Positions 96 to 17,179 of a stretch of DNA of 35,855 nt are shown piece by piece. Under the pieces are notes generated by a model. The model was given only the letters and a program-made list of their open reading frames with translations. It was not told where the DNA came from and did not search any database. Each line of letters starts with the position of its first letter. The stretch's first letter is position 1. The position numbers were made by a program, and so were the translations under genes. This DNA comes from an uncultured Akkermansia sp. (GTDB taxonomy: Bacteria; Verrucomicrobiota; Verrucomicrobiia; Verrucomicrobiales; Akkermansiaceae). Location: the NCBI GenBank assembly GCA_947624205.1, contig CANQJI010000020.1, positions 1 to 35,855 on the forward strand, given 5' to 3'.

Positions 96-1097
96 TTAGC
101 ATACCAGCATTGAGTCCCCGCGGCGGTACACTCGTTCCATGGCGATGTAGCGCGTGCGCAGGAGCTCCGCCGAGCGATGCCCCATTTCCAGCTGAAGCTC
201 GGCGTAGTTGCGGAAGGTGGCCAGGTGATGCGTGGCAAAGGTGTGCCGCAGAACATCCGGCTGCCAGTCGGTGAAGCCGGCTTCCCGGTGCAGGCGTGCC
301 CAGAGACGCCGCCAGTTCGGCGGACAGATGCGTTCGTCCTCGGTGCGCCGGATGCGCTGCAGGATGCGTGCCAGGGGCGGGAAGATGGTGACGTGCCTCG
401 CGCCGCCGGTCTTGCTGTGGTGCGGGGCGATGCAGATGACGCCGGCGTCGAGTCGTACATCGCTCCAGCTCAGGCGTTCCACCTCATTCGGGCGCACGCC
501 GGCGTAGAGCATAATAGCTGTGACGGCGAGGCAGGCGCCGCCCTCGAACGTCTCGGCGGTGTGCACCAGTCGCCCGATTTCCTCTTTGTTCAGGATACTG
601 ATGCGCTTTTCTTCAATGCGTTCCGGCTCCACCTTCCGCACCGGGTTCTCTGCGCACCAGCCCCGCTTACACGCCGTGGAGAAGACTCCGCTGAGGATGA
701 GTCTTGCCTTGTTCCGCTGCCGCGGTGTGTCAAATGCTTCTCGGATGTAGTCGCGGCATTCCTCGGCGGAGATGCTGCGCATGCGGCGATTTGCCAGTTT
801 ATTGCAGCGCTTCATGAACCGCTTCGTGATACCACGGAAGTCGCTCAACGTCCGTTTCCGTCGGTCTTTTCTCGCTTCCAGCGCTGCTTCCACGGCCCGG
901 GCAAAGGTGACCGTCTTTTCGCGCCGTCGCAGTTCCTTCTCCCCTGCCGCGATGCACGCCATAGCGCGCTTCACGCGTCCCCTTCCTGCTTCCAGCGCGG
1001 CTTTCGCCACCAACGCCGCTTCCAGTACATCCACACCCGTCTGCCGCAGCACCTCTACCGCTGCCAGCTCCTTCGTTCTATCTGATTTTGTCTTCAT
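96..1097 (-). CDS. tyrosine-type recombinase/integrase
   Basis: AGVRPNEVERLSW, SKTGGARHV, LRHTFATHH, MGHRSAELLRTRYIAM: catalytic R/K/R/H/Y motifs; N-terminal SAM-like core-binding region. Confidence 0.9.
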   Translation of the reverse strand: MKTKSDRTKELAAVEVLRQTGVDVLEAALVAKAALEAGRGRVKRAMACIAAGEKELRRREKTVTFARAVEAALEARKDRRKRTLSDFRGITKRFMKRCNKLANRRMRSISAEECRDYIREAFDTPRQRNKARLILSGVFSTACKRGWCAENPVRKVEPERIEEKRISILNKEEIGRLVHTAETFEGGACLAVTAIMLYAGVRPNEVERLSWSDVRLDAGVICIAPHHSKTGGARHVTIFPPLARILQRIRRTEDERICPPNWRRLWARLHREAGFTDWQPDVLRHTFATHHLATFRNYAELQLEMGHRSAELLRTRYIAMERVYRRGDSMLVC

Positions 1098-1104
1098 AGT
1101 GATA

Positions 1105-1288
1105 CGAATTCAGAATCCGTGTGCAAGAAAAATATGATACCCTAACTAAATTTACCAGCTCTACATTTAGAGAGCTTCTTGCGCAAGGAAAAGGTAGGCC
1201 GCAAAAGCAAATAAAATGCCTCATTTGTAGAAACAAACTAACTCATCATCAACGAAAGGAATCAAAGATGGTACGGATTCTGAATTCG
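1105..1288. repeat. 16-bp perfect inverted repeat (1105-1120 cgaattcagaatccgt / 1273-1288 acggattctgaattcg) flanking a 152-bp spacer; candidate invertible element
   Basis: Arms read directly as exact reverse complements; arm 1 is 7 bp upstream of the recombinase start codon. Confidence 0.75.
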
Positions 1289-1341
1289 GTAGACTGCGAG
1301 CTGAGCTTACAATTTAGCGAGTGGATAAGAGAAGACGAGTC

Positions 1342-2613
1342 ATGAAAACGAAACGTTGGATTGCGGGATTTATCGTGTTGGCCTGCTTGGCACCATCGTA
1401 TGGAATCATGGTTGAAGTGGAAGGGCGAGCTCCGGCGGATGAACCTATGGCGCGTTCGCAGGCTCTGGCAGATGCTCTGCGTGAGGCGGTGCGAACGGGC
1501 GCAGGCGTTGATTTGGTGAGTGAGTCGCAGACGAAAAATTTTACGATGGAGTTTGACCGCATGTTCTCGCGCGCCCGTGGGTATGTGAAGAGATATGAAG
1601 TTGTGTCCACCGGTACTTCGGGAGACGGTTTTTACGTGGTCAAGGTGAAGGCAGATGTGGGCGAGGGTATGCCGGACACGAATGATAAGCTCACCTTGCA
1701 GATGATGGCGCGTGAGCATCAGGCGCCGCGTGTCGCCATCAGCATTGATGAACAGATTGAGGAGGTAAAGAATGGTACATTGGCCTCTGATTGGTTGCGT
1801 AACCAAGCAACCGAATGCGGGTTGCGTGTGGTAGAACTTGAGAGAACTCAGGGCGAAGGCGGCATGATGGCAAAACGAGCACGGGCTCTCGGTCGTGGGC
1901 AAGAAGCTGCTCTTCGCGGGCAGGGCACGGTTTCCGGCTGCGACTACATCATTGAGGGCGCCGTTGTAGGCAGCAGCACAGGCGAGCAATCTTTCTACGG
2001 CAGCAAGCCCGGTAAAAAGTTTTCCCTCGGTCTTAACCTGAAGGTAGTGGATGCAGCTACGGGGGTGGTTATCTTGACGGAAAATGCGCCCTCGCGAGAT
2101 ATTCTCATCCGTCGGGTCACGTCCGATACGGCAGCTGCTCGAGAAGCTGTACGCCAGCTTATGGAGGGGAGCCCTCGCGTGGCAGATTCGGATGCCGGCA
2201 TGAAACTCATCCGCCGCATTTTTGCCCACTGGGCGGCGGAGATGGATCTTGGCGCAGTCTGCAAACTGGAGTTCACTGGGATGGATCTTGCCACAGCTCA
2301 GAAACTCAAGGAGAGGCTATCCTCCGTGCAGAATGTGGGTTCCGTCTGGATTCGCAGTGTGGATCCTGCGGGGGTCACCGTGGTGGACTGCGAGGCGCGT
2401 CTGCAACCGCTGGAACTGGCAGCCATCATTGAATCATCCCTGCCGGGCTTCAAGCTCGACCGCTCGGAGAACCGTTACCTCTCTTTCCGTCCTTCGGACA
2501 AAACAGCAGCAAAGGAAGACGCCTCCTCTCCCGCGCTCCTCTACGGCGGCATTGGCGGCGGTGTCGTGTTGGCGCTTGCTGCTGCACTCTTTTTCCTGAA
2601 ATCCAAACACTGA
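1342..2613 (+). CDS. secreted protein, FlgT/LPP20-like N-terminal region, CsgG-like middle, C-terminal TM helix
   Basis: Signal peptide MKTKRWIAGFIVLACLAPSYG; VEGRAPADEPMARSQALADALREAVRTGAGVDL; C-term LLYGGIGGGVVLALAAALFFLKSKH. Confidence 0.6.
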   Translation: MKTKRWIAGFIVLACLAPSYGIMVEVEGRAPADEPMARSQALADALREAVRTGAGVDLVSESQTKNFTMEFDRMFSRARGYVKRYEVVSTGTSGDGFYVVKVKADVGEGMPDTNDKLTLQMMAREHQAPRVAISIDEQIEEVKNGTLASDWLRNQATECGLRVVELERTQGEGGMMAKRARALGRGQEAALRGQGTVSGCDYIIEGAVVGSSTGEQSFYGSKPGKKFSLGLNLKVVDAATGVVILTENAPSRDILIRRVTSDTAAAREAVRQLMEGSPRVADSDAGMKLIRRIFAHWAAEMDLGAVCKLEFTGMDLATAQKLKERLSSVQNVGSVWIRSVDPAGVTVVDCEARLQPLELAAIIESSLPGFKLDRSENRYLSFRPSDKTAAKEDASSPALLYGGIGGGVVLALAAALFFLKSKH

Positions 2614-2625
2614 ACAAGCACCTAT

Positions 2626-3354
2626 ATGAAACATTTATACGTCACTCCAATCATTGCAGCAACTGCCTTTCTCGTCACCTCGTGTGGTACCCAGATTCAA
2701 ATGACTGAGGCAATGCCGGCGAAGCTCAACATGGCACGTGGATCCAGAGTGGCTATTGCCTACAAAGGATACCTTCCGGATAAGGTGGGCGATCAACTTT
2801 TGGCTTTGATGACGAAAGATGGCTACTATACCTTTGTCCCATGGAATGCCGATTACACGATTTCTATTCAAGACCACTATGGATCAATGTCCACACCCAG
2901 CCCATGCCGAGTGGATTTCTATGTACTGCAGGGAGACCGGGGGAACGTTCTGTATAGCGGTACGACATCCGATGGAGTGGTGGGAACATTTGGGAGTTTG
3001 GCAAAAGACATTTATGAGACATTTGCGCCTCATGAGAAAGAGTACAGTGTGAGGGTCAGTGTGGATAGCAAAAATCAACTCCTCAAACAAGCCGTTGAGC
3101 AGGCTCGTAAGAAAAACTATACGCTGGCGCGAGCCTTGGCGCTTGCTTCTTTGCAGCAGTTTCCCAAGGCCCCGGAGACGTATTTCCTATTGGCTATGAC
3201 AGAGCGTGCTGATTCCAATTTTGCGAAGTCCAATGCTTACCTCAAGAAGGCACTGGAGTTAAAACCGGGAAAGGGCAAGTACAAAGCCGCTCTTCATAAG
3301 AACGAGGTCATTCAGACAAACGAAGCCAATGTTATTAAACAGCTTTCCAACTAA
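2626..3354 (+). CDS. lipoprotein with C-terminal TPR-like region (paralogue of the next gene)
   Basis: Lipobox LVTSC; CGTQIQMTEAMPAKLN; TPR-like C-term KAPETYFLLAMTERADSNFAKSNAYLKKALELKP. Confidence 0.65.
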   Translation: MKHLYVTPIIAATAFLVTSCGTQIQMTEAMPAKLNMARGSRVAIAYKGYLPDKVGDQLLALMTKDGYYTFVPWNADYTISIQDHYGSMSTPSPCRVDFYVLQGDRGNVLYSGTTSDGVVGTFGSLAKDIYETFAPHEKEYSVRVSVDSKNQLLKQAVEQARKKNYTLARALALASLQQFPKAPETYFLLAMTERADSNFAKSNAYLKKALELKPGKGKYKAALHKNEVIQTNEANVIKQLSN

Positions 3355-3363
3355 ACACCATTT

Positions 3364-4137
3364 ATGAAGAAATTATCTCTAAAAACAATTGGGACGTGTG
3401 TACTTTCTCTTTCTCTGCTTTGTCTCATGGCGTCGTGCGGAACGCAAATTCAGATGACGGAGGCCATTCCAGCAAAGGTCAACTTCGGAAGAGATACTAC
3501 CATGTACATCGGAAGCATCAACAGCTTAGATTCCAGAATTGCCGGGGAGATAGGAAGAAAATTGACTGAAGATGGATACTATAAACTTCCTATGCAAAGA
3601 ATTTCCGACAGAGAGGCATATATGACAATCTCTGGTACAAAGCTCGTACCTAAAGAATCAAATTATTTCCAGTTGAAAACACACGTAAGCATATATGCCG
3701 GCGGTCAAAACCTATATCAACGCAGTTTTTTACGCGGCAAATTACTTAAAAATGAGAAACTAGATTTTGACATCGATGAAATATCAACGGATGTGGTGCA
3801 CGATATCAGTCCCCACGAGAAAGATCTGTACGTCCGCGTTCGTGGCTCAAAGGAGAATCCCAGTGTAGAATTGGGGGCAAAGGCCTGCAAGGCGGGCAAT
3901 TGGGCACAAGGAGAAGCGTACGCAAAGCAAGCTCTCCAGCAGAAACCCGATGATCCTGAAGCCTTGTTCCTCATGGGGGTCATCGAGCGTAAAAAAATGA
4001 ATTATGCTCAGTCCACCGCCTATTTTACGAGAGCCCTTGCTGTAAAACCATCGGGGAAATACCGTAAAGCCATTTCGAAAAACAAAGTCATGGAGCAAAA
4101 TGACAAGTACACGATGCAGCAACTCGCTGGTGAATAA
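3364..4137 (+). CDS. lipoprotein with C-terminal TPR-like region (paralogue of the previous gene)
   Basis: Lipobox LMASC; CGTQIQMTEAIPAKVN; PDDPEALFLMGVIERKKMNYAQSTAYFTRALAVKP. Confidence 0.65.
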   Translation: MKKLSLKTIGTCVLSLSLLCLMASCGTQIQMTEAIPAKVNFGRDTTMYIGSINSLDSRIAGEIGRKLTEDGYYKLPMQRISDREAYMTISGTKLVPKESNYFQLKTHVSIYAGGQNLYQRSFLRGKLLKNEKLDFDIDEISTDVVHDISPHEKDLYVRVRGSKENPSVELGAKACKAGNWAQGEAYAKQALQQKPDDPEALFLMGVIERKKMNYAQSTAYFTRALAVKPSGKYRKAISKNKVMEQNDKYTMQQLAGE

Positions 4138-4160
4138 TCTTTCCAACTAACCTGACAACT

Positions 4161-5075
4161 ATGAAAATTACACCCATATTCTATGCACTGGCCGGGCTAT
4201 CGCTGCTCGGAACGACCACGGCAACGGCAGCTCCGAAGCCGGTGATTAAGGCGGCAGCTGAGAACAAACTGCCGGAGATTTGGCAAAAAGTGCCGGCGGC
4301 GCAGAGACTCTCTCTCGTGCGCGCAGCGGAGATGGATGCCCTGCGCATCCTGGCGGAGCGCATTGCCGGGCTTTCGCTCGATGGGGAAAGCACTGTGCAG
4401 GATCTCGCTGCCACGAGTGATACGGTACGCGGTGAACTGGCAGCTGTGCTGAGCGGCGTGAAAACCACAGAAGGACCGACCTACCACGAGGACGGTCGCG
4501 TGGAAGTGGTGCGCGCCGTGAAGATTAACCAGCTCGTCCGCACAATCACCGAGAAAAAAGGCGGTGATACGAAAGTGACCCTCGATAATCAGCAAGATAC
4601 GCTGGATGCGCTGGGTAATGCCGCCATCCCCGGTTCCCTTGGACAAAAGCGCATTCTCGCCAAGCGTGCGGCGGAGATGGATGTGTATCGTCGTCTCGCA
4701 GAACGCGTAGCGGGTGTTCAGATTGTCGGCGAGACCACGTTGAAAGATTTTGTGGCGAGCGATGACAAGCTGCGCGCCTCTTTCAGCCACACGATCAAGT
4801 CGGCGGAGATTACTTCCATCGCTTTTAATGATGACGGCACAGCTTCCGTGCAGGCCACTCTGAAAATCGGCCCGTTGGTGCGTACGATAGTGAAGCAGAA
4901 GTCGGCGCAGGGGAATGTGCTGAAGGTGGAAGAAAAAACGGAACAGATGAAGATCATCGAGACCGGTAATGGCGCCCCCACAGAAGAGGGTGCCGATGGC
5001 TCGTCCACTCCTTCTTCCAAGGAAGTGGATACGGTGATTTCCTCAGTTCTGACCGTGTCCCCTGCCGTGGAGTAA
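4161..5075 (+). CDS. secreted protein with two tandem LPP20-like domains
   Basis: Signal peptide; two internal repeats RAAEMDALRILAERIAGL...VRTI and RAAEMDVYRRLAERVAGV...VRTI. Confidence 0.6.
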   Translation: MKITPIFYALAGLSLLGTTTATAAPKPVIKAAAENKLPEIWQKVPAAQRLSLVRAAEMDALRILAERIAGLSLDGESTVQDLAATSDTVRGELAAVLSGVKTTEGPTYHEDGRVEVVRAVKINQLVRTITEKKGGDTKVTLDNQQDTLDALGNAAIPGSLGQKRILAKRAAEMDVYRRLAERVAGVQIVGETTLKDFVASDDKLRASFSHTIKSAEITSIAFNDDGTASVQATLKIGPLVRTIVKQKSAQGNVLKVEEKTEQMKIIETGNGAPTEEGADGSSTPSSKEVDTVISSVLTVSPAVE

Positions 5076-5081
5076 AACGAG

Positions 5082-5396
5082 ATGATAAATACGATGAGAA
5101 CTTCTTATCTCTTTTTCTGCGGAATAGTCCTTGCGACGCTTGCCGCTTGCAGCAGTGACAAGGCTGAGGCTTCCAAGGCTCCGACAACCGCTCCCGCCGT
5201 CGCTCCTCCTGCAGCTTCTGCTGTGAAATCTGCCGCGAAAGCCCCTGTTCAAGCTGTCGTCAAGAAACAAACCACGACGGCAAGGTCTACCGCAAAAAAG
5301 GCCGTGAAAAAAGTGACCCCGAAGCCTGCCACTCCCGTCAAGGAAACGATTCGTCAGACGGAGGAGGTCATTGGCACGCAAACGATTGTCAGTTGA
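5082..5396 (+). CDS. small Ala/Lys-rich lipoprotein
   Basis: Lipobox-like TLAACSS after signal peptide; low-complexity A/K/P/T tail. Confidence 0.5.
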   Translation: MINTMRTSYLFFCGIVLATLAACSSDKAEASKAPTTAPAVAPPAASAVKSAAKAPVQAVVKKQTTTARSTAKKAVKKVTPKPATPVKETIRQTEEVIGTQTIVS

Positions 5397-5406
5397 TTGA
5401 ACCCCT

Positions 5407-6489
5407 ATGAAACTCTCTCTCCTTTTCCCGCTCTTCCTCGCCTGTGCCTCTGTGGTGCAGGCGGGGGAAGATCCTTTCGCTAAATTGGCGTCCTCCCTCG
5501 TGGAACAGCTGCCGCAGAAGGATAAGCCCATCAACCTCGGCGTAGGCAACTTTGTGTACGGCGATACGCAGATGATGTCACCGCTTTCCACCACCATCCG
5601 CGAGGAGTTGGAAATCGCTCTGCCCAAGTCGCACAAGGTGCAGATTATCACCCGCTCCGGATTGGATGAGCTGGAGACGGAGGGAGAGTTCCAGGCAACG
5701 GATCTCGTGGAACCCGGCACGGCGGTGTCCAAGGTGGCCGTGCAGGGAGTGGAAGGCATCGTTCGCGGTCGCTTCACCTCGGATGGTTCTACGGTGACTC
5801 TTTACACGGAGATCGCCTGGCTGGAGAGCGGACGCATTACCAAGGACAAGGTGACGTGGCGTATCAATGAGGTAGCCGCTCGCGTTTGGCCGAACAAGTC
5901 TGCTTCTGAAGCTGCCGAGCGTGTGATGCCGCAGAACTTTGAGCAGTCCAAACAGGGAATTGCCGAGGTGGAAGCCGGCGCCGAGGAGGTGACGAACAAT
6001 GCCAAACTCCTGAATGTGAAGCAGGAGATTCCTCTGCAGCTGCGCACGGTGGATGGTGAGCGCGTATACCAAGAGGGGGACACCGTTGCGTTCCGTGTGA
6101 AGGCAGGGGAGACTTGCCACATCGTGGTGATTTGCCACCAGAGCGATGGCACCTCCGTTGTACTCTTCCCCAATCAATTCCACAAGGACACGTTGATTGA
6201 GGGCGACAAGTGGGTGGACATCCCCGGTACGCTCAAGTCCGGTTTCGAAATCGAAATCGGTGAACCTTTCGGTTCGGATGTCGTTCAAGTCATTGCCTGC
6301 ACCAATGAGAACGCCCTCCACAAAGAAATCAAAGACCTCGCCGCTGCCACCACGAAGGATGACCCCTATCCCGTGATGACGCGCGGCATGAGCATCAAAA
6401 AAGCCAAAGCCGCTTCCAAAGCCGATCTTTCCAACCAAACTAAATGGGGAGAGAAACACATCATCGTGAGTACCTTCCCCAAGGAATAA
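5407..6489 (+). CDS. secreted FlgO/CsgG-like N-terminus + DUF4384-like domain
   Basis: Signal peptide; INLGVGNFVYGDTQMMSPLSTTIREELEIAL; RVYQEGDTVAFRVKAGETCHIVVICHQSDGTSVVLFPNQFHKDTLIEG (DUF4384-like). Confidence 0.7.
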   Translation: MKLSLLFPLFLACASVVQAGEDPFAKLASSLVEQLPQKDKPINLGVGNFVYGDTQMMSPLSTTIREELEIALPKSHKVQIITRSGLDELETEGEFQATDLVEPGTAVSKVAVQGVEGIVRGRFTSDGSTVTLYTEIAWLESGRITKDKVTWRINEVAARVWPNKSASEAAERVMPQNFEQSKQGIAEVEAGAEEVTNNAKLLNVKQEIPLQLRTVDGERVYQEGDTVAFRVKAGETCHIVVICHQSDGTSVVLFPNQFHKDTLIEGDKWVDIPGTLKSGFEIEIGEPFGSDVVQVIACTNENALHKEIKDLAAATTKDDPYPVMTRGMSIKKAKAASKADLSNQTKWGEKHIIVSTFPKE

Positions 6490-9400: not shown

Positions 9401-12400
9401 ATGAAAATTACATTTCTTTTAACATGTGTAGTTTGCATGGGCTTGTGCATCTTTGATGCAGAGGCTCAAATTTCGCGTTTGGACAACCGATTTAAAATAA
9501 AACGCTCACAACCGGTGAGGCGGGTGGCGCCCCAAACGACGACAGCAGCCAGAAGAACGGCGCCGAGCAGTCGGTTTAATGAAAGACGACAGGACAGTAG
9601 CCAGACAGAATCAGGCTACATCACGTTTGAGGGACTTTATAACGACGAAATTATCCAACTGCCGAGATGGTTTTGGGAGGAGGTGAAGGATATCAATGAG
9701 CAGTTGAGGGAAAAACTTTCGCCAAGTGATTATCTTGAGATACTCAAAGAGGAGCGCGCTTTTTATGGCAAGTACGCTCGGAAAGATGCCTTCATGCGGG
9801 AGTTGAGAAGTTCATCTGGCTCCAATATGAAGGACATCCCTACTCTTCGGAAAAAACTTTACAAGATATACGAAAATCCACGAGACGCAAAAATATTTGA
9901 TAGCCCTCACTTTGTGGAACTACCCAAGAAGGGCATCCTTTTTAATGAACATGTAAGTTACACAAATGATTATGTGAGATTTGCGGATGAAAATTATATT
10001 TTGACCACGGGCCCTGGAGCCCATTATGGCGCGATACTCAGTTTTTGGAATTCCAGGACAGGTAGAATTGTGGATAAGTTTTCTTTTCCCAGAGTAATTT
10101 GTGATGTCTTAGGAACCATCGCGAAAGGACGTCCAATATATTCAGTGGCTGAAGCACCGGTCGAGTGTCCCGGTGAACACTGGTGTGGATCATATGTCGT
10201 AACATACGCTATTGATCTTGCCTCGAGAAAATTCCAATCCTATGGATATACGTACGAAGAAAGAGATAAAAAAATTATAGCGCAGCCAAGAGGTGTTTTC
10301 CAGGAGTTGGGGGTACATTTTCTTCCCCCCATTTTCCACTATGGGTATGAGACTTATGAGGAACGGCCTCCTTATCCGTGGTATCTCACCCGCAATGAAT
10401 GCCTGCAAGATTTAACGTTGACGCACCGCGGAAAAGGGCGTGAGCAATACCCGGCAAAGAAAGACACAACGACGTATGCGGACGATGATGTATTCTCTAC
10501 ATATGACGAGGGGGGGAATGGATATGAACTGGAATGGGGAACACTCGCGTATAGGAATTGGAATGAAGAGAAAAGCCAAGCTGTAACTCACACCAGAGAA
10601 AAAACAGCCCAGGCAATAATTGAAAAAGTAGAAAGTAAAAGGGATTGCGATAATTGGGTTGTAAGCAATCCCCAAGGCGATTATACTCTTTTTGCTGGTG
10701 GGGAATTCGGTCCGGGAACGAGTTTAATGCTCACGATGTATGGGATAAGCTCCCCAGAGGGATTATATTTGTTTCCACCACTTCAAACTAAATCCGGCCT
10801 GAGAGAGCAGTTGACGCCGAGTGGGAAATTGATGAGTTATAGAGATTGTCTTGAAGAGAATAAAAGTCGCAGGTTGGATTTACCAGGAGGTATTCGCGAA
10901 GAATTATTACTTGAATCTAATGAGATGGCTCTCCCGGTTATGAAGGTATACCCGGGCAGCATGGGGGACAACATAATCTTTTCCATTGGGATGGAAGGTT
11001 GTACGGATTGGAATGCCACATTGAATCTCATAACTCTGAACAAATTGAACCATGAGTACGAAATCATCAACAAATTACCCTACCGTAAATCCTATCTTTT
11101 GTCACCCCTATGGATGCCCGAACATCGTTGGTTTCTCAAGCCGGAGACTGATTTCTCTTACAGTATCGTTCATGTCGATGATTTCGGCGGCACGAGGAAG
11201 ATTGCCGATTTTTATGTGGATAATGCGCAAGGGTACGCCATTGTCCTGCCAAATGGGCGCTACGTCGGCTCTCCGGGGTGTGAGAAGTTCTTGCAGTACG
11301 GCGATGGTGAGCGCGTCGTAGGGATGCTGGCGTTGGCTCCATGGCGGAATCGACCGGCAGAGGTTCTGGAAGCGCTGGGTGGGAATGCAGATGATATAGC
11401 CGCACTGAGGGAGACGACGAAGCGCTGGCTTCGCAAACAGGGCTTCGACCCGGACAATATGCCACAAGAACCTGCTCTCAAGGATTTTCCGGCAGTGGAT
11501 GTGCACATGCCGAATCTCTTCAGCACGACGGATACGGCATGTTTTACGGTAACTGCCAAAGCTACGGCAAATGACATTGCCAAGGTGATTGTGCGTGTGG
11601 ATGGCGTAGAAGTGCCTCAAGGTTGGAGCAGAGGGTTAGCCATTGCCGCTGGCGAGCAGAAAGAACTACCGGTGGAAGTACCGCTCGCGAGTGGGCAGAA
11701 TTGGATTGAAGTCACGCCGGTGGACAGCAACGGCATATCCGGCGACACCTCTCGGTTCCGCACGATTTACAAGGGGAACTACCCCTCCGATTTATTTATT
11801 GTCACTCTCGGCGTTTCGGATTATGACGATCCCGACTTGAAATTGCAATACGCCGCCAAGGATGCAAGGGATATTGCGGCTGCCTTTGAGAAATATGGAA
11901 CGGGACGCAAACATCTTCTCGTCCTCACTGACAAAGAAGTCAAGGACAAGAGCGTGCTTGAGAAGGTAAAGATATTCCTATCGGCAGCATCGTTGGAAGA
12001 TCGGATTGTATTTTACGTGGCAGGACACGGTATGCTGGATGATCAACTGAACTACTACTACGCTCCGGCAGGCTTCAACATTGATCGGGTAGGTGAAACG
12101 GGGATACCCATGGATGATTTGCTCGCGTGCATCCAAAGTAGCAAGGCGCGCAAGAGACTGCTTCTGCTTGATACCTGCCACTCCGGAGTGCTTGGGGAAG
12201 AAGGGGAAGAAAAACTGGCGATGAGTGGTGTGCAGCTGCCGCACGGCGTGCGGGCGATTCAGCATCGCGGCATGAAAGTGAGAAAGGCCACCGGCGCTCT
12301 CAACACGAGACAGAAGAAACGCTACATCGAGGACCTGTTCTCACGCGGCGACACTCAACGCGGCATCAACATCATAGCCGGCTCTGCGGGGGCAGAGTAC

Positions 12401-13861
12401 GCCTTGGAATCCGGTGCATGGAAGAATGGGGTGTTTACGGCATCCGTCATCCAGGCGCTGAGCGGGGCAGGAACGACCAAGGATGCGAATAGCGATGGGT
12501 ACTTCTCGGTAGCAGAAGTGCTGAAGAGCGTGATTCAATCCGTCAATAAACAAACGGGGGGACAGCAGAAGCCCAGTGTTGTGGCAGCGGAGGCTCCGGA
12601 AAGTATGGTTTTAGTAGAAGGTGTTGGTTTTGTATCTATCAAAGACAGAATAGAGAAATCCGATTGGAAAGGAGTGGAGGAGTTGATCGGTCGCGGAATG
12701 AGAGCGTATGACGATGCAGAGGCATCTGATATTGTGAAACTGGCGATCGAACATAAAGCGCCTGTTGAGATGCTTAGGAAATTGATTACTCATGGTTGGT
12801 CGGAAAAGGTTTCTTACCTTTGGTCTTTTAGAGATGCCTTGGAGAGCGATGCCTACAGGGAGCAAAAGGAAACAGTGGCTCAAATATTTTTGGAAAAGGG
12901 TGTCAAACTGAAGGGATTCACGGAAGACGCACTAAACGGAAGTCCGGAGTTGGTGGAGATGCTGCTGTCCCATGGAACGGATGTAAATGAACAACTTGTG
13001 TTCGCTCCCAAAGAACTGGATAGTCTCATCAAGCCTGTTCGCATTAGTCGTGTTATGAAGGGTAGCCCCCTCTGGAGCACTTTGAGTCGTTTTCCCAGTA
13101 GTGTCTCACCACTTTATTTGACGACTTTTCAATATTGTAAAGCCATTAATAATTCTCAAAGAAGTCGGGAATTGGAGAAAATACGCATCCTTTTGGAAAA
13201 TGGGGCTGATCCCAATATTTACGATGGTTATTGCCCCAATTCTTCATTCATTTCAGGAGCCAAGACAACACCGCTCTATTTTCTGTGCCGTTTAGCAGAT
13301 ATTTCTTTCAGCGATGCTCTGCCTGTCATTAAATTGCTGATACAGCACGGGGCGGATATCCACTTTGCAGACAAAAACGGAAGACAACCGATGGATTCAT
13401 GGGATCCCAATTACAAAGTGCTGGAGAAGCTTGCTGCGGCAGCGAAAGCCGGGGAGTCATTGGATGGCATGGACTTGACTGTCACTAACACAAATAGTTC
13501 TTCATATTCCCCTGCGGGGCAGACCCACACGGACCTTCAACCAATGATTGACCGGATGCGCGCGTTGCGTTGTCGCGAGGCTACGTCGGCGCTTTATCAA
13601 AGGCGTCTGCTGACTCTGCTGCCGATGATTCGGGATGGAGCAGATGTGGATATTACCCTGCCGGAAACAAAGGGGAACACGGCTCTGCATTATTCCTGCG
13701 CCATTGGCAGCTGGAGCATCACGCAGTGGCTCGTGGAGCATGGGGCGAATGTGAATGCTGTGACGGATAAGGGAGCGACGCCGCTGGATTGCGTGGGTGA
13801 TGACAATGCCCAGCGCATCCGAGCCTTGCTGATTTCACGTGGAGCGAGAAGAAACAAATGA
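9401..13861 (+). CDS. secreted multidomain caspase-like protease (peptidase C14): WD40-like propeller, Ig-like linker, caspase, EF-hand loop, ankyrin repeats
   Basis: Signal peptide MKITFLLTCVVCMGLCIFDAEA; ILSFWNSRTGRIVDKF; LFIVTLGVSDYDDPDLKLQYAAKDARDIAAAF; catalytic YVAGHG (His876) and LLDTCHSG (Cys926); DANSDGYFSVAE; ankyrins such as GNTALHYSCAIGSWSITQWLVEHGANVNAVTDKGATPLD. Confidence 0.9.
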   Translation: MKITFLLTCVVCMGLCIFDAEAQISRLDNRFKIKRSQPVRRVAPQTTTAARRTAPSSRFNERRQDSSQTESGYITFEGLYNDEIIQLPRWFWEEVKDINEQLREKLSPSDYLEILKEERAFYGKYARKDAFMRELRSSSGSNMKDIPTLRKKLYKIYENPRDAKIFDSPHFVELPKKGILFNEHVSYTNDYVRFADENYILTTGPGAHYGAILSFWNSRTGRIVDKFSFPRVICDVLGTIAKGRPIYSVAEAPVECPGEHWCGSYVVTYAIDLASRKFQSYGYTYEERDKKIIAQPRGVFQELGVHFLPPIFHYGYETYEERPPYPWYLTRNECLQDLTLTHRGKGREQYPAKKDTTTYADDDVFSTYDEGGNGYELEWGTLAYRNWNEEKSQAVTHTREKTAQAIIEKVESKRDCDNWVVSNPQGDYTLFAGGEFGPGTSLMLTMYGISSPEGLYLFPPLQTKSGLREQLTPSGKLMSYRDCLEENKSRRLDLPGGIREELLLESNEMALPVMKVYPGSMGDNIIFSIGMEGCTDWNATLNLITLNKLNHEYEIINKLPYRKSYLLSPLWMPEHRWFLKPETDFSYSIVHVDDFGGTRKIADFYVDNAQGYAIVLPNGRYVGSPGCEKFLQYGDGERVVGMLALAPWRNRPAEVLEALGGNADDIAALRETTKRWLRKQGFDPDNMPQEPALKDFPAVDVHMPNLFSTTDTACFTVTAKATANDIAKVIVRVDGVEVPQGWSRGLAIAAGEQKELPVEVPLASGQNWIEVTPVDSNGISGDTSRFRTIYKGNYPSDLFIVTLGVSDYDDPDLKLQYAAKDARDIAAAFEKYGTGRKHLLVLTDKEVKDKSVLEKVKIFLSAASLEDRIVFYVAGHGMLDDQLNYYYAPAGFNIDRVGETGIPMDDLLACIQSSKARKRLLLLDTCHSGVLGEEGEEKLAMSGVQLPHGVRAIQHRGMKVRKATGALNTRQKKRYIEDLFSRGDTQRGINIIAGSAGAEYALESGAWKNGVFTASVIQALSGAGTTKDANSDGYFSVAEVLKSVIQSVNKQTGGQQKPSVVAAEAPESMVLVEGVGFVSIKDRIEKSDWKGVEELIGRGMRAYDDAEASDIVKLAIEHKAPVEMLRKLITHGWSEKVSYLWSFRDALESDAYREQKETVAQIFLEKGVKLKGFTEDALNGSPELVEMLLSHGTDVNEQLVFAPKELDSLIKPVRISRVMKGSPLWSTLSRFPSSVSPLYLTTFQYCKAINNSQRSRELEKIRILLENGADPNIYDGYCPNSSFISGAKTTPLYFLCRLADISFSDALPVIKLLIQHGADIHFADKNGRQPMDSWDPNYKVLEKLAAAAKAGESLDGMDLTVTNTNSSSYSPAGQTHTDLQPMIDRMRALRCREATSALYQRRLLTLLPMIRDGADVDITLPETKGNTALHYSCAIGSWSITQWLVEHGANVNAVTDKGATPLDCVGDDNAQRIRALLISRGARRNK

Positions 13862-14686: not shown

Positions 14687-16027
14687 ATGATACCGAGCGC
14701 TATGAGTGCAGAAAAACTGGAAGAAGAAAAGAAGGAGGAAGGCGAAGCAAAGATTGAACGTCTGCTCCTTGTTGGGAATAGTCCGAATTTGGTGGACGGG
14801 CAAAACCGTAGTTGTGAATGGGGAAGACTTTTAGAGGATCTTGAAAAAAAGATAAAACCATACGTGAAGGAAATTGAGAAAGGAGGGAATTTTCCTAGGA
14901 GGATGGAAATAATAAGACAATATGCTAAGAAACCAGGATTTGAAGAAGTTAATCAAGCTCTTAATACTTGGTATAAAAGAATTTCGGATATGTTGCCTTC
15001 TTCTGTACACAGGATGTTGGGAGCCATGTCAAGATATTTCCAATATTGCTTAACAACTAATTATGATTATACGATAGAAAAAGTATTCAAAATACAGAAG
15101 AAAAGGAGCAAAGGAGGAAAGAAAGCAAATGTAGCAATAAATCCCCCTGGTAAAAATGGGAGTCCGAGTGTAACTCATATTCACGGTGTCGCGAACGACC
15201 CCGAAAGTATCATTATGAGTATGGAGGAATATGAAGAAGGTTTAAAACTTTTAAAAAATGTAAATGAATCATGGGTGGACTGTTTTAAAAATTGCGAAAT
15301 ACATATATGCGGAATCAGTCTGGGAGAAGAAGAAAAGTTATTGTGGTATGCCTTAAATGAAAGAAAAAAATTCCTTGAAAAACAAAAGTATTTAGCCCAC
15401 AAACGCCCGCATGGATATGCATATCTTTTCGAAAATAAGAGAAAAGAGGGAGAGGGGGACAAAATCAAGCAATTGAAAACTCTCCTGCGTAAGGTAGCTA
15501 TCATCCCGATTATAATTCCTGTAGAGAATGATGATTATTTTACGGCATGGAAAACACTCATCGGAGAAATGATTTTAAATATCGTAGGGGCAAATTCTCA
15601 AAATGACCACGAAAACCTTCCCGAAGAAATCTTGCGCAAATTAGAGCTAGGAGGTGGCAGGATTGCGTCTAGAAATACCAATATGTCTACTGCTTTTGCT
15701 ACAAGTTATAAAGATCCTGAATTATGTCAGTTAACATTAAGTAAAAGGAAGAGGCAGGTTATTGAGAAATCAGGGAATTGGCTGATTTATTGTAGAGTAT
15801 TTGAGGAGCGATATTATTATTGTATTGATTGGAAAAGAATATGCAAAAGTTATAAAAACGAGGAACGATGGAACTTTTTTATTAACTATAATACGGGTAT
15901 TTTGTATAAATTATCAAGGGATGGAATCAGCCTTCGAAAGTATAGACAAACACAGCAATGTAAATGCTTTCATGAGTTCATTACAATGTTTTATCAATCT
16001 CCGGAAAAAGCCAAAGCTGAAACCTAG
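14687..16027 (+). CDS. SIR2-like domain protein (possible NAD-consuming effector); start could be 14702
   Basis: RLLLVGNSPNLVD, LTTNYDYTIEKVF, VTHIHGVANDPESIIMSMEEYEEGL, HICGISLGEEEKLLWYAL. Confidence 0.65.
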   Translation: MIPSAMSAEKLEEEKKEEGEAKIERLLLVGNSPNLVDGQNRSCEWGRLLEDLEKKIKPYVKEIEKGGNFPRRMEIIRQYAKKPGFEEVNQALNTWYKRISDMLPSSVHRMLGAMSRYFQYCLTTNYDYTIEKVFKIQKKRSKGGKKANVAINPPGKNGSPSVTHIHGVANDPESIIMSMEEYEEGLKLLKNVNESWVDCFKNCEIHICGISLGEEEKLLWYALNERKKFLEKQKYLAHKRPHGYAYLFENKRKEGEGDKIKQLKTLLRKVAIIPIIIPVENDDYFTAWKTLIGEMILNIVGANSQNDHENLPEEILRKLELGGGRIASRNTNMSTAFATSYKDPELCQLTLSKRKRQVIEKSGNWLIYCRVFEERYYYCIDWKRICKSYKNEERWNFFINYNTGILYKLSRDGISLRKYRQTQQCKCFHEFITMFYQSPEKAKAET

Positions 16028-16960: not shown

Positions 16961-17179
16961 ATGGGGGAAAAAGAAGAATCGGGTGTATGGAAGAATGGCG
17001 TATTCTCGTCCACGATCATCCAAGCCTTGCAGGATCCGAATGCGGATGCCAACAAGGACGGCAAACTCAACGTCGAGGAGTTGCAACATTACGTGACGAG
17101 CAAGGTTGCGGAACAGACCAATGGAGAACAGAAACCAAGCTCCGTAGCTTCAGAGAATGGGTATGGATTTATTCTTTGA
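16961..17179 (+). pseudogene. remnant of a second caspase gene (post-caspase tail with EF-hand loop)
   Basis: GVWKNGVFSSTIIQALQDPNADANKDGKLNVEELQHYV...EQTNGEQKPSSVA vs GAWKNGVFTASVIQALSGAGTTKDANSDGYFSVAEVL...KQTGGQQKPSVVA. Confidence 0.7.

Follow-up and report, generated by a model that had tools for sequence, protein, structure and literature searches.

The fimS/FimB-FimE and ipuS switches of E. coli carry a complete promoter within the invertible element. The invertible promoters of Bacteroides capsule loci are served by Mpi, a global recombinase and not one per locus. For the invertons of Akkermansia the inverted-repeat motif CGGATT..AATCCG is reportedly owed to Jiang et al. 2019, the founding paper. 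According to two further sources, Akkermansia invertons with this motif flip in culture, in mice and in humans and control capsule (cps1 inverton; PMC13343947), and in a defined community 32 of the 39 invertons of inverton group 138, which has a promoter-like motif, came from A. muciniphila (PMC11892184). These reports also give read-level proof of inversion in Akkermansia for the kind of site described below (PMC13343947, PMC11892184).

The window analyzed here, a stretch of 35,855 nucleotides, is one entire contig (C20) of a 2.72-Mb genome of an uncultured Akkermansia sp. in 166 contigs. The nearest relatives are also uncultured Akkermansia, mostly from 'Lapin' (rabbit) samples. A sequence-only reading of the window had proposed an invertible promoter, bounded by a perfect 16-bp inverted repeat, between a recombinase gene and a run of genes for exported proteins. 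The repeat was recovered as described: CGAATTCAGAATCCGT and ACGGATTCTGAATTCG are complementary at 16 of 16 positions and 152 nt separate them (Table 1). The distance of 7 nt from arm 1 to the recombinase start also holds, the start codon ending at 1097, and arm 2 precedes the ATG of the next gene by 53 nt where ca. 55 bp had been given. The arm motif differs by one mismatch from the Akkermansia inverton motif. The site pair, CGGATTCTGAATTCG and its inverse, is 169 bp apart, which lies within the 100–300 bp range of Akkermansia-type invertons. A 25-codon ORF (1268–1345) starts in the spacer, crosses arm 2 and overlaps the start codon of the target gene (ATGA); it was set aside since several close copies stop early in frame and since it exists in the OFF orientation only.

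Table 1. Positions of the recombinase, the inverton and the putative target genes in the window.
Feature	Position	Strand	Remarks
Tyrosine recombinase, 333 aa, probable dedicated invertase	96..1097	-	Pfam Phage_integrase 2.4e-16
Arm 1, recombination site	1105..1120	+	ACG-A-ATT-CAG-AAT-C-CGT type, imperfectly palindromic in itself; core covariation with arm 2
Predicted invertible 152-bp segment	1121..1272	.	OFF orientation as assembled; homologous segment opposite in L076 vs L062
-35-like TTGCAC inside segment beside arm 1	1121..1126	-	now faces recombinase
Conserved inner block AACTAACTCATCATCAA near arm 2	1236..1252	+	near-invariant in nine close copies
Arm 2, recombination site, inverted orientation	1273..1288	+	spacing 17 in 56 loci, 16 in 13
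-10-like TAGACT just outside arm 2, fixed to target gene	1290..1295	+	gene-side TANNNT
First putative target gene, exported protein, FlgT_N domain	1342..2613	+	four orthologues behind invertons
Two TPR-type lipoproteins	2626-3354, 3364-4137	+	putative target cluster (2626..6489)
LPP20-like protein	4161-5075	+	putative target cluster
Small lipoprotein	5082-5396	+	putative target cluster
DUF4384 protein	5407-6489	+	putative target cluster

Conservation of the paired arms in related genomes, the lack of which the sequence-only reading had named as a refutation, was examined genus-wide in 141 distinct regions upstream of related recombinases, at an inverted repeat score of at least 10 and a spacing of 60–240 bp. 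Such a repeat adjoined the recombinase in 119 of these regions as compared to 8 of 141 after mononucleotide shuffling, with no shuffled sequence exceeding a score of 11. The repeat is not due to chance, and the stretch 1105–1288 is very probably an Akkermansia-type inverton. Because of the linkage between recombinase and arms across the genus, the window recombinase is predicted to act on the arms next to it. Over the core of the arms (11 positions, −3 to +7 relative to the centre) the two arms of one locus were 97–100% identical, whereas between loci the same positions were 29–78% identical. Strand exchange between two sites requires just such agreement of the cores within a locus.

The half-sites showed a further pattern in 94 loci. 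The inner half-sites of paired arms were ca. 99% identical and the outer half-sites 53–87%, and a variable inner arm position agreed between loci in 37%. This one-sided homogenization of the inner half-sites is not explained by inversion alone. Within the segment, the conserved inner block (1236–1252) is perhaps the site of an accessory protein.

Inversion can be followed by comparing assemblies. One and the same locus is present in two rabbit-gut genomes as L076 and L062, with 66/70 identical positions on the recombinase side and 146/150 on the target side. Their spacers are 97% identical (151/156) only when one of them is inverted. Judged from these genomes, inversion does occur in the inverton family to which the window locus belongs. 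Two more candidates for opposite states, L145/L137 and L034/L143, were rejected, their alignments being too weak to establish the same locus. In the genome of the window itself, a sister inverton is divided between two contigs: C95 breaks off precisely where its arm 1 meets the segment, 23 nt upstream of its recombinase, and C14 has the matching arm 2, ACGAATTTGAAATTCGG followed by TAGAAT, from its first base on. Breaks at the inner edges of the arms are as expected of a population that contains both orientations; alternatively, near-identical paralogues could have confused the assembler. Contigs carrying L059, L061, L078, L085 and L099 end at the same point of the arm or a few bases from it. 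Contig C37 of genome G000 opens with a CGTATTNNNAATACG-type inverton site (positions 4–18), possibly another break due to mixed orientations. From these relatives, the window segment (1121–1272) is predicted to flip in living cells as well.

The sequence-only reading had found no convincing −35 or −10 element in the spacer. A promoter scan agreed, giving a match at chance level only. No promoter was found there because the promoter appears to be split across arm 2. We aligned 94 loci on the arm centre, with eight ON loci normalized to a common orientation. One end of the segment carried a TTG-type −35 element close to the arm in 94/94 loci, the opposite end in 7/94; these two counts are not fully independent since the −35 end of the eight ON loci was chosen by score. 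The −10 counts are independent: a TANNNT element bordered the gene-side arm on its outer side in 80/94 loci, and the recombinase-side arm in 5/94. With the −35 end set to the gene side, a distance of 17 bp separates the hexamers in 56 loci and one of 16 bp in 13 (69 in total). Locus L034 is an example in the ON state, reading TTGACT-N17-TAGAAT, which is also found by an independent promoter scan. In nine close copies of the window module, CAAG (= CTTG) at the −35 end is invariant, as are the T, the A and the final T of TAGACT. The TTGCAC of the window is a weak −35 match, and for some close copies the score in the OFF orientation almost equals that in the ON orientation. In a distant member of the genus, G004, the −10 outside the arms is often unrecognizable and a split is accordingly not claimed for every Akkermansia species. 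From these alignments we infer that the two hexamers would form a working promoter and that the orientation of the segment would control transcription of the adjacent gene.

A recombinase promoter built on the same −35 was considered as well. It would read TTGCAC-N16-TATCAC and end 3 nt before the start codon, but the low number of loci with TANNNT on the recombinase side (5/94) shows that this arrangement is not general.

The textbook layout, known from fimS and the B. fragilis capsule promoters, would place a complete promoter inside the segment, its direction setting which side is transcribed, with the −10-like box outside being incidental. The scan did return one promoter-like match at 9 of 12 positions that points to the gene (TTCAGA-18-TATGAT, 1109–1138). 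However, 0.5 matches of this quality are expected by chance and most close copies read TATGAC at the position of TATGAT. A whole promoter would have both elements between the arms, and the conserved −10 lies outside, in 80/94 loci and solely on the gene side, at a fixed spacing to the inside −35. More evidence against this layout comes from invertons of the same genome that lack a neighboring recombinase. These are further site pairs of the type CGTATTNNNAATACG, 155–157 bp apart, with no matching recombinase adjoining in the stretches examined. All six that were examined have TTGAC inside at one end. Five of the six precede genes for exported proteins starting with MKLHLP, and in these five the −10 occurs solely on the side of that gene. 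We consider a complete promoter within the segment unlikely. As assembled, three of the five MKLHLP invertons are ON and two are OFF, and both states of this kind of switch are therefore found together in a single genome. The earlier proposal of an invertible promoter thus stands by the family evidence, except that the promoter is probably not whole within the spacer, the −10 half lying outside arm 2.

We regard it as probable that the locus is a phase-variation switch in which the neighboring recombinase flips the segment, joins the split promoter and turns the cluster of exported proteins ON. The tyrosine recombinase would cut and rejoin the DNA at both arms and so turn over the 152-bp segment. 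This segment would carry the −35 half (TTGCAC) of a sigma-70-type promoter, while the −10 half (TAGACT) would stay with the target gene. As assembled, the two halves would lie apart and the cluster from 1342 would be OFF. After inversion the arrangement would become TTGCAC-N17-TAGACT, with arm 2, the recombination site, serving as promoter spacer, and the cluster would be ON.

The window locus is OFF as assembled. When orientation was scored by the promoter across arm 2 in 108 loci, 88 were OFF, 9 were ON (the call for one of these, L154, being doubtful) and 11 were undecided ('amb'). The first target gene has four orthologues in other genomes, 91–96% identical and all behind an inverton, and those that were scored are OFF. 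A uniform OFF state would also result if the locus were a relic, its arms kept by descent and its recombinase inactive here, leaving it locked OFF. An OFF bias is, however, usual among the examined loci (88/108). The recombinase is intact and its active-site residues are conserved: R202, K229, R284, H307 and Y317, which make up the catalytic R..K..(H/x)xxR..H..Y pattern, are invariant in 11 aligned homologues. The arm cores covary and the arms in the window are perfect. We therefore find a relic quite improbable here. The first His of the HxxR motif is replaced by Asp281 in all 11 aligned homologues, an unusual variant of the active site.

The genome encodes six such recombinases including that of the window, with copies that are 94–98% identical, on contigs C20, C14, C95, C118, C53 and C4. 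For five of the six an inverted-repeat pair adjoins the recombinase within one contig, and for the sixth the contig ends at its arm. Where the upstream part is assembled the order is always recombinase start, arm 1, ca. 150 bp, arm 2 and then an unrelated gene. In nine close copies the conserved module spans from the recombinase to the TAGACT just past arm 2 and the sequence beyond diverges. On the other side, the copies differ in the sequence that immediately follows the recombinase and have no common end. The occurrence of six near-identical copies at unrelated places in one genome could be taken to indicate a transposable element with inverted-repeat ends, consisting of the recombinase and the arms, with promoter effects being secondary. 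Against this, both arms are on the same side of the recombinase, which is therefore not bracketed, and the recombinase copies share no downstream end. A transposable element of this kind is very unlikely.

The same pattern of a conserved recombinase and site followed by unrelated genes, with conservation ending just past arm 2, resembles an integron-like attI platform where the recombinase captures genes at arm 2. Gene capture would explain why different genes are found behind each recombinase copy. An IntI with attC sites, which defines an integron, was not recovered: the integron integrase model gave 27.8 bits against a cut-off of 265, and the first 6 kb of the window showed no array of similar sites between the genes downstream. 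Moreover, the sites come as inverted pairs and homologous loci differ by inversion of the segment, not by cassette content. Such a platform is extremely unlikely. Returning to the promoter switch, its recombinase, arms and split promoter may tentatively be viewed as a portable cassette that was copied before unrelated genes within the genome, a history we consider possible rather than probable. The cassette would need only to bring, or to meet, a −10 element at its outer edge, and the variable arm centre, the same within a locus but often different from locus to locus, could serve as an address by which recombination between copies is avoided.

Some observations concern the surroundings of these modules. 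Close downstream of the window recombinase, where the contig ends, positions 13–77 match the 3' end of a group II intron (domain V region), and a similar intron-like end is present in L019 at the same position beside a homologous recombinase. The same module also occurs at L084 and L102 on contigs labeled Lachnospiraceae and Bacilli, with an orthologous target gene in L084; these contigs are most likely misbinned Akkermansia.

In the window, the gene arrangement suggests a cluster transcript spanning 1342–6489. Among the first genes behind 63 related switches, polymorphic-membrane-protein or autotransporter-type products were found (Chlam_PMP 12, PATR 4), together with outer-membrane beta-barrels (4), FlgT_N proteins of the kind encoded in the window (5), SIR2-like proteins (3) and HsdM methylases (2). 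Ankyrin proteins, acyltransferases and glycosyltransferases also occur. SIR2-like proteins as direct targets of three related invertons would make defense-type genes phase-variable. The window itself encodes a SIR2-like protein (Pfam SIR2_2) at 14687–16027. It further encodes a caspase-ankyrin protein of 1486 aa (9401–13861) and a 72-aa fragment (16961–17179) that by eye looks like the end of the caspase region of that protein, and which is perhaps a duplicated remnant of it.

If the split promoter is real, the ON or OFF state of Akkermansia invertons would be readable from sequence by the position of TTG relative to TANNNT, and assemblies and metagenomes would become expression-state data. 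It would also explain why promoter scans in the spacers of Akkermansia invertons find little. A switch whose recombination site doubles as promoter spacer would be compact in design, and a segment with only half a promoter could not start transcription from the wrong place.

Compared to known systems, the locus resembles the integron integrase and attI in having a tyrosine recombinase that reads away from its site with variable genes after it, but it has an inverted site pair, is without a cassette array and scores far below the cut-off of the integrase model. With fimS and ipuS it shares a tyrosine recombinase, short inverted repeats and promoter switching of surface genes, whereas the segment in the window holds only a −35. 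It is like the Bacteroides capsule system (Mpi family; PMC11892184) in that a genome contains many invertible promoters, that the invertases are dedicated or global and that surface genes are involved. In Bacteroidota the promoter motif lies within the inverton and the arm motif differs from that of the window. The published Akkermansia invertons are closest: they agree with the locus in genus, in the arm motif apart from one mismatch, in the size of the segment, in having exported or surface-related genes behind it and in ON/OFF logic. In contrast to these, the window has a probably dedicated recombinase that starts 7 bp from arm 1, there are six near-identical copies of the module, and the promoter is probably split across an arm. 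A promoter divided by an arm was not found described in PMC13343947 and PMC11892184 as far as these were searched. Invertons in Akkermansia are already known, and by comparison with these two papers the apparent split promoter with its dedicated recombinase module looks like the new part.
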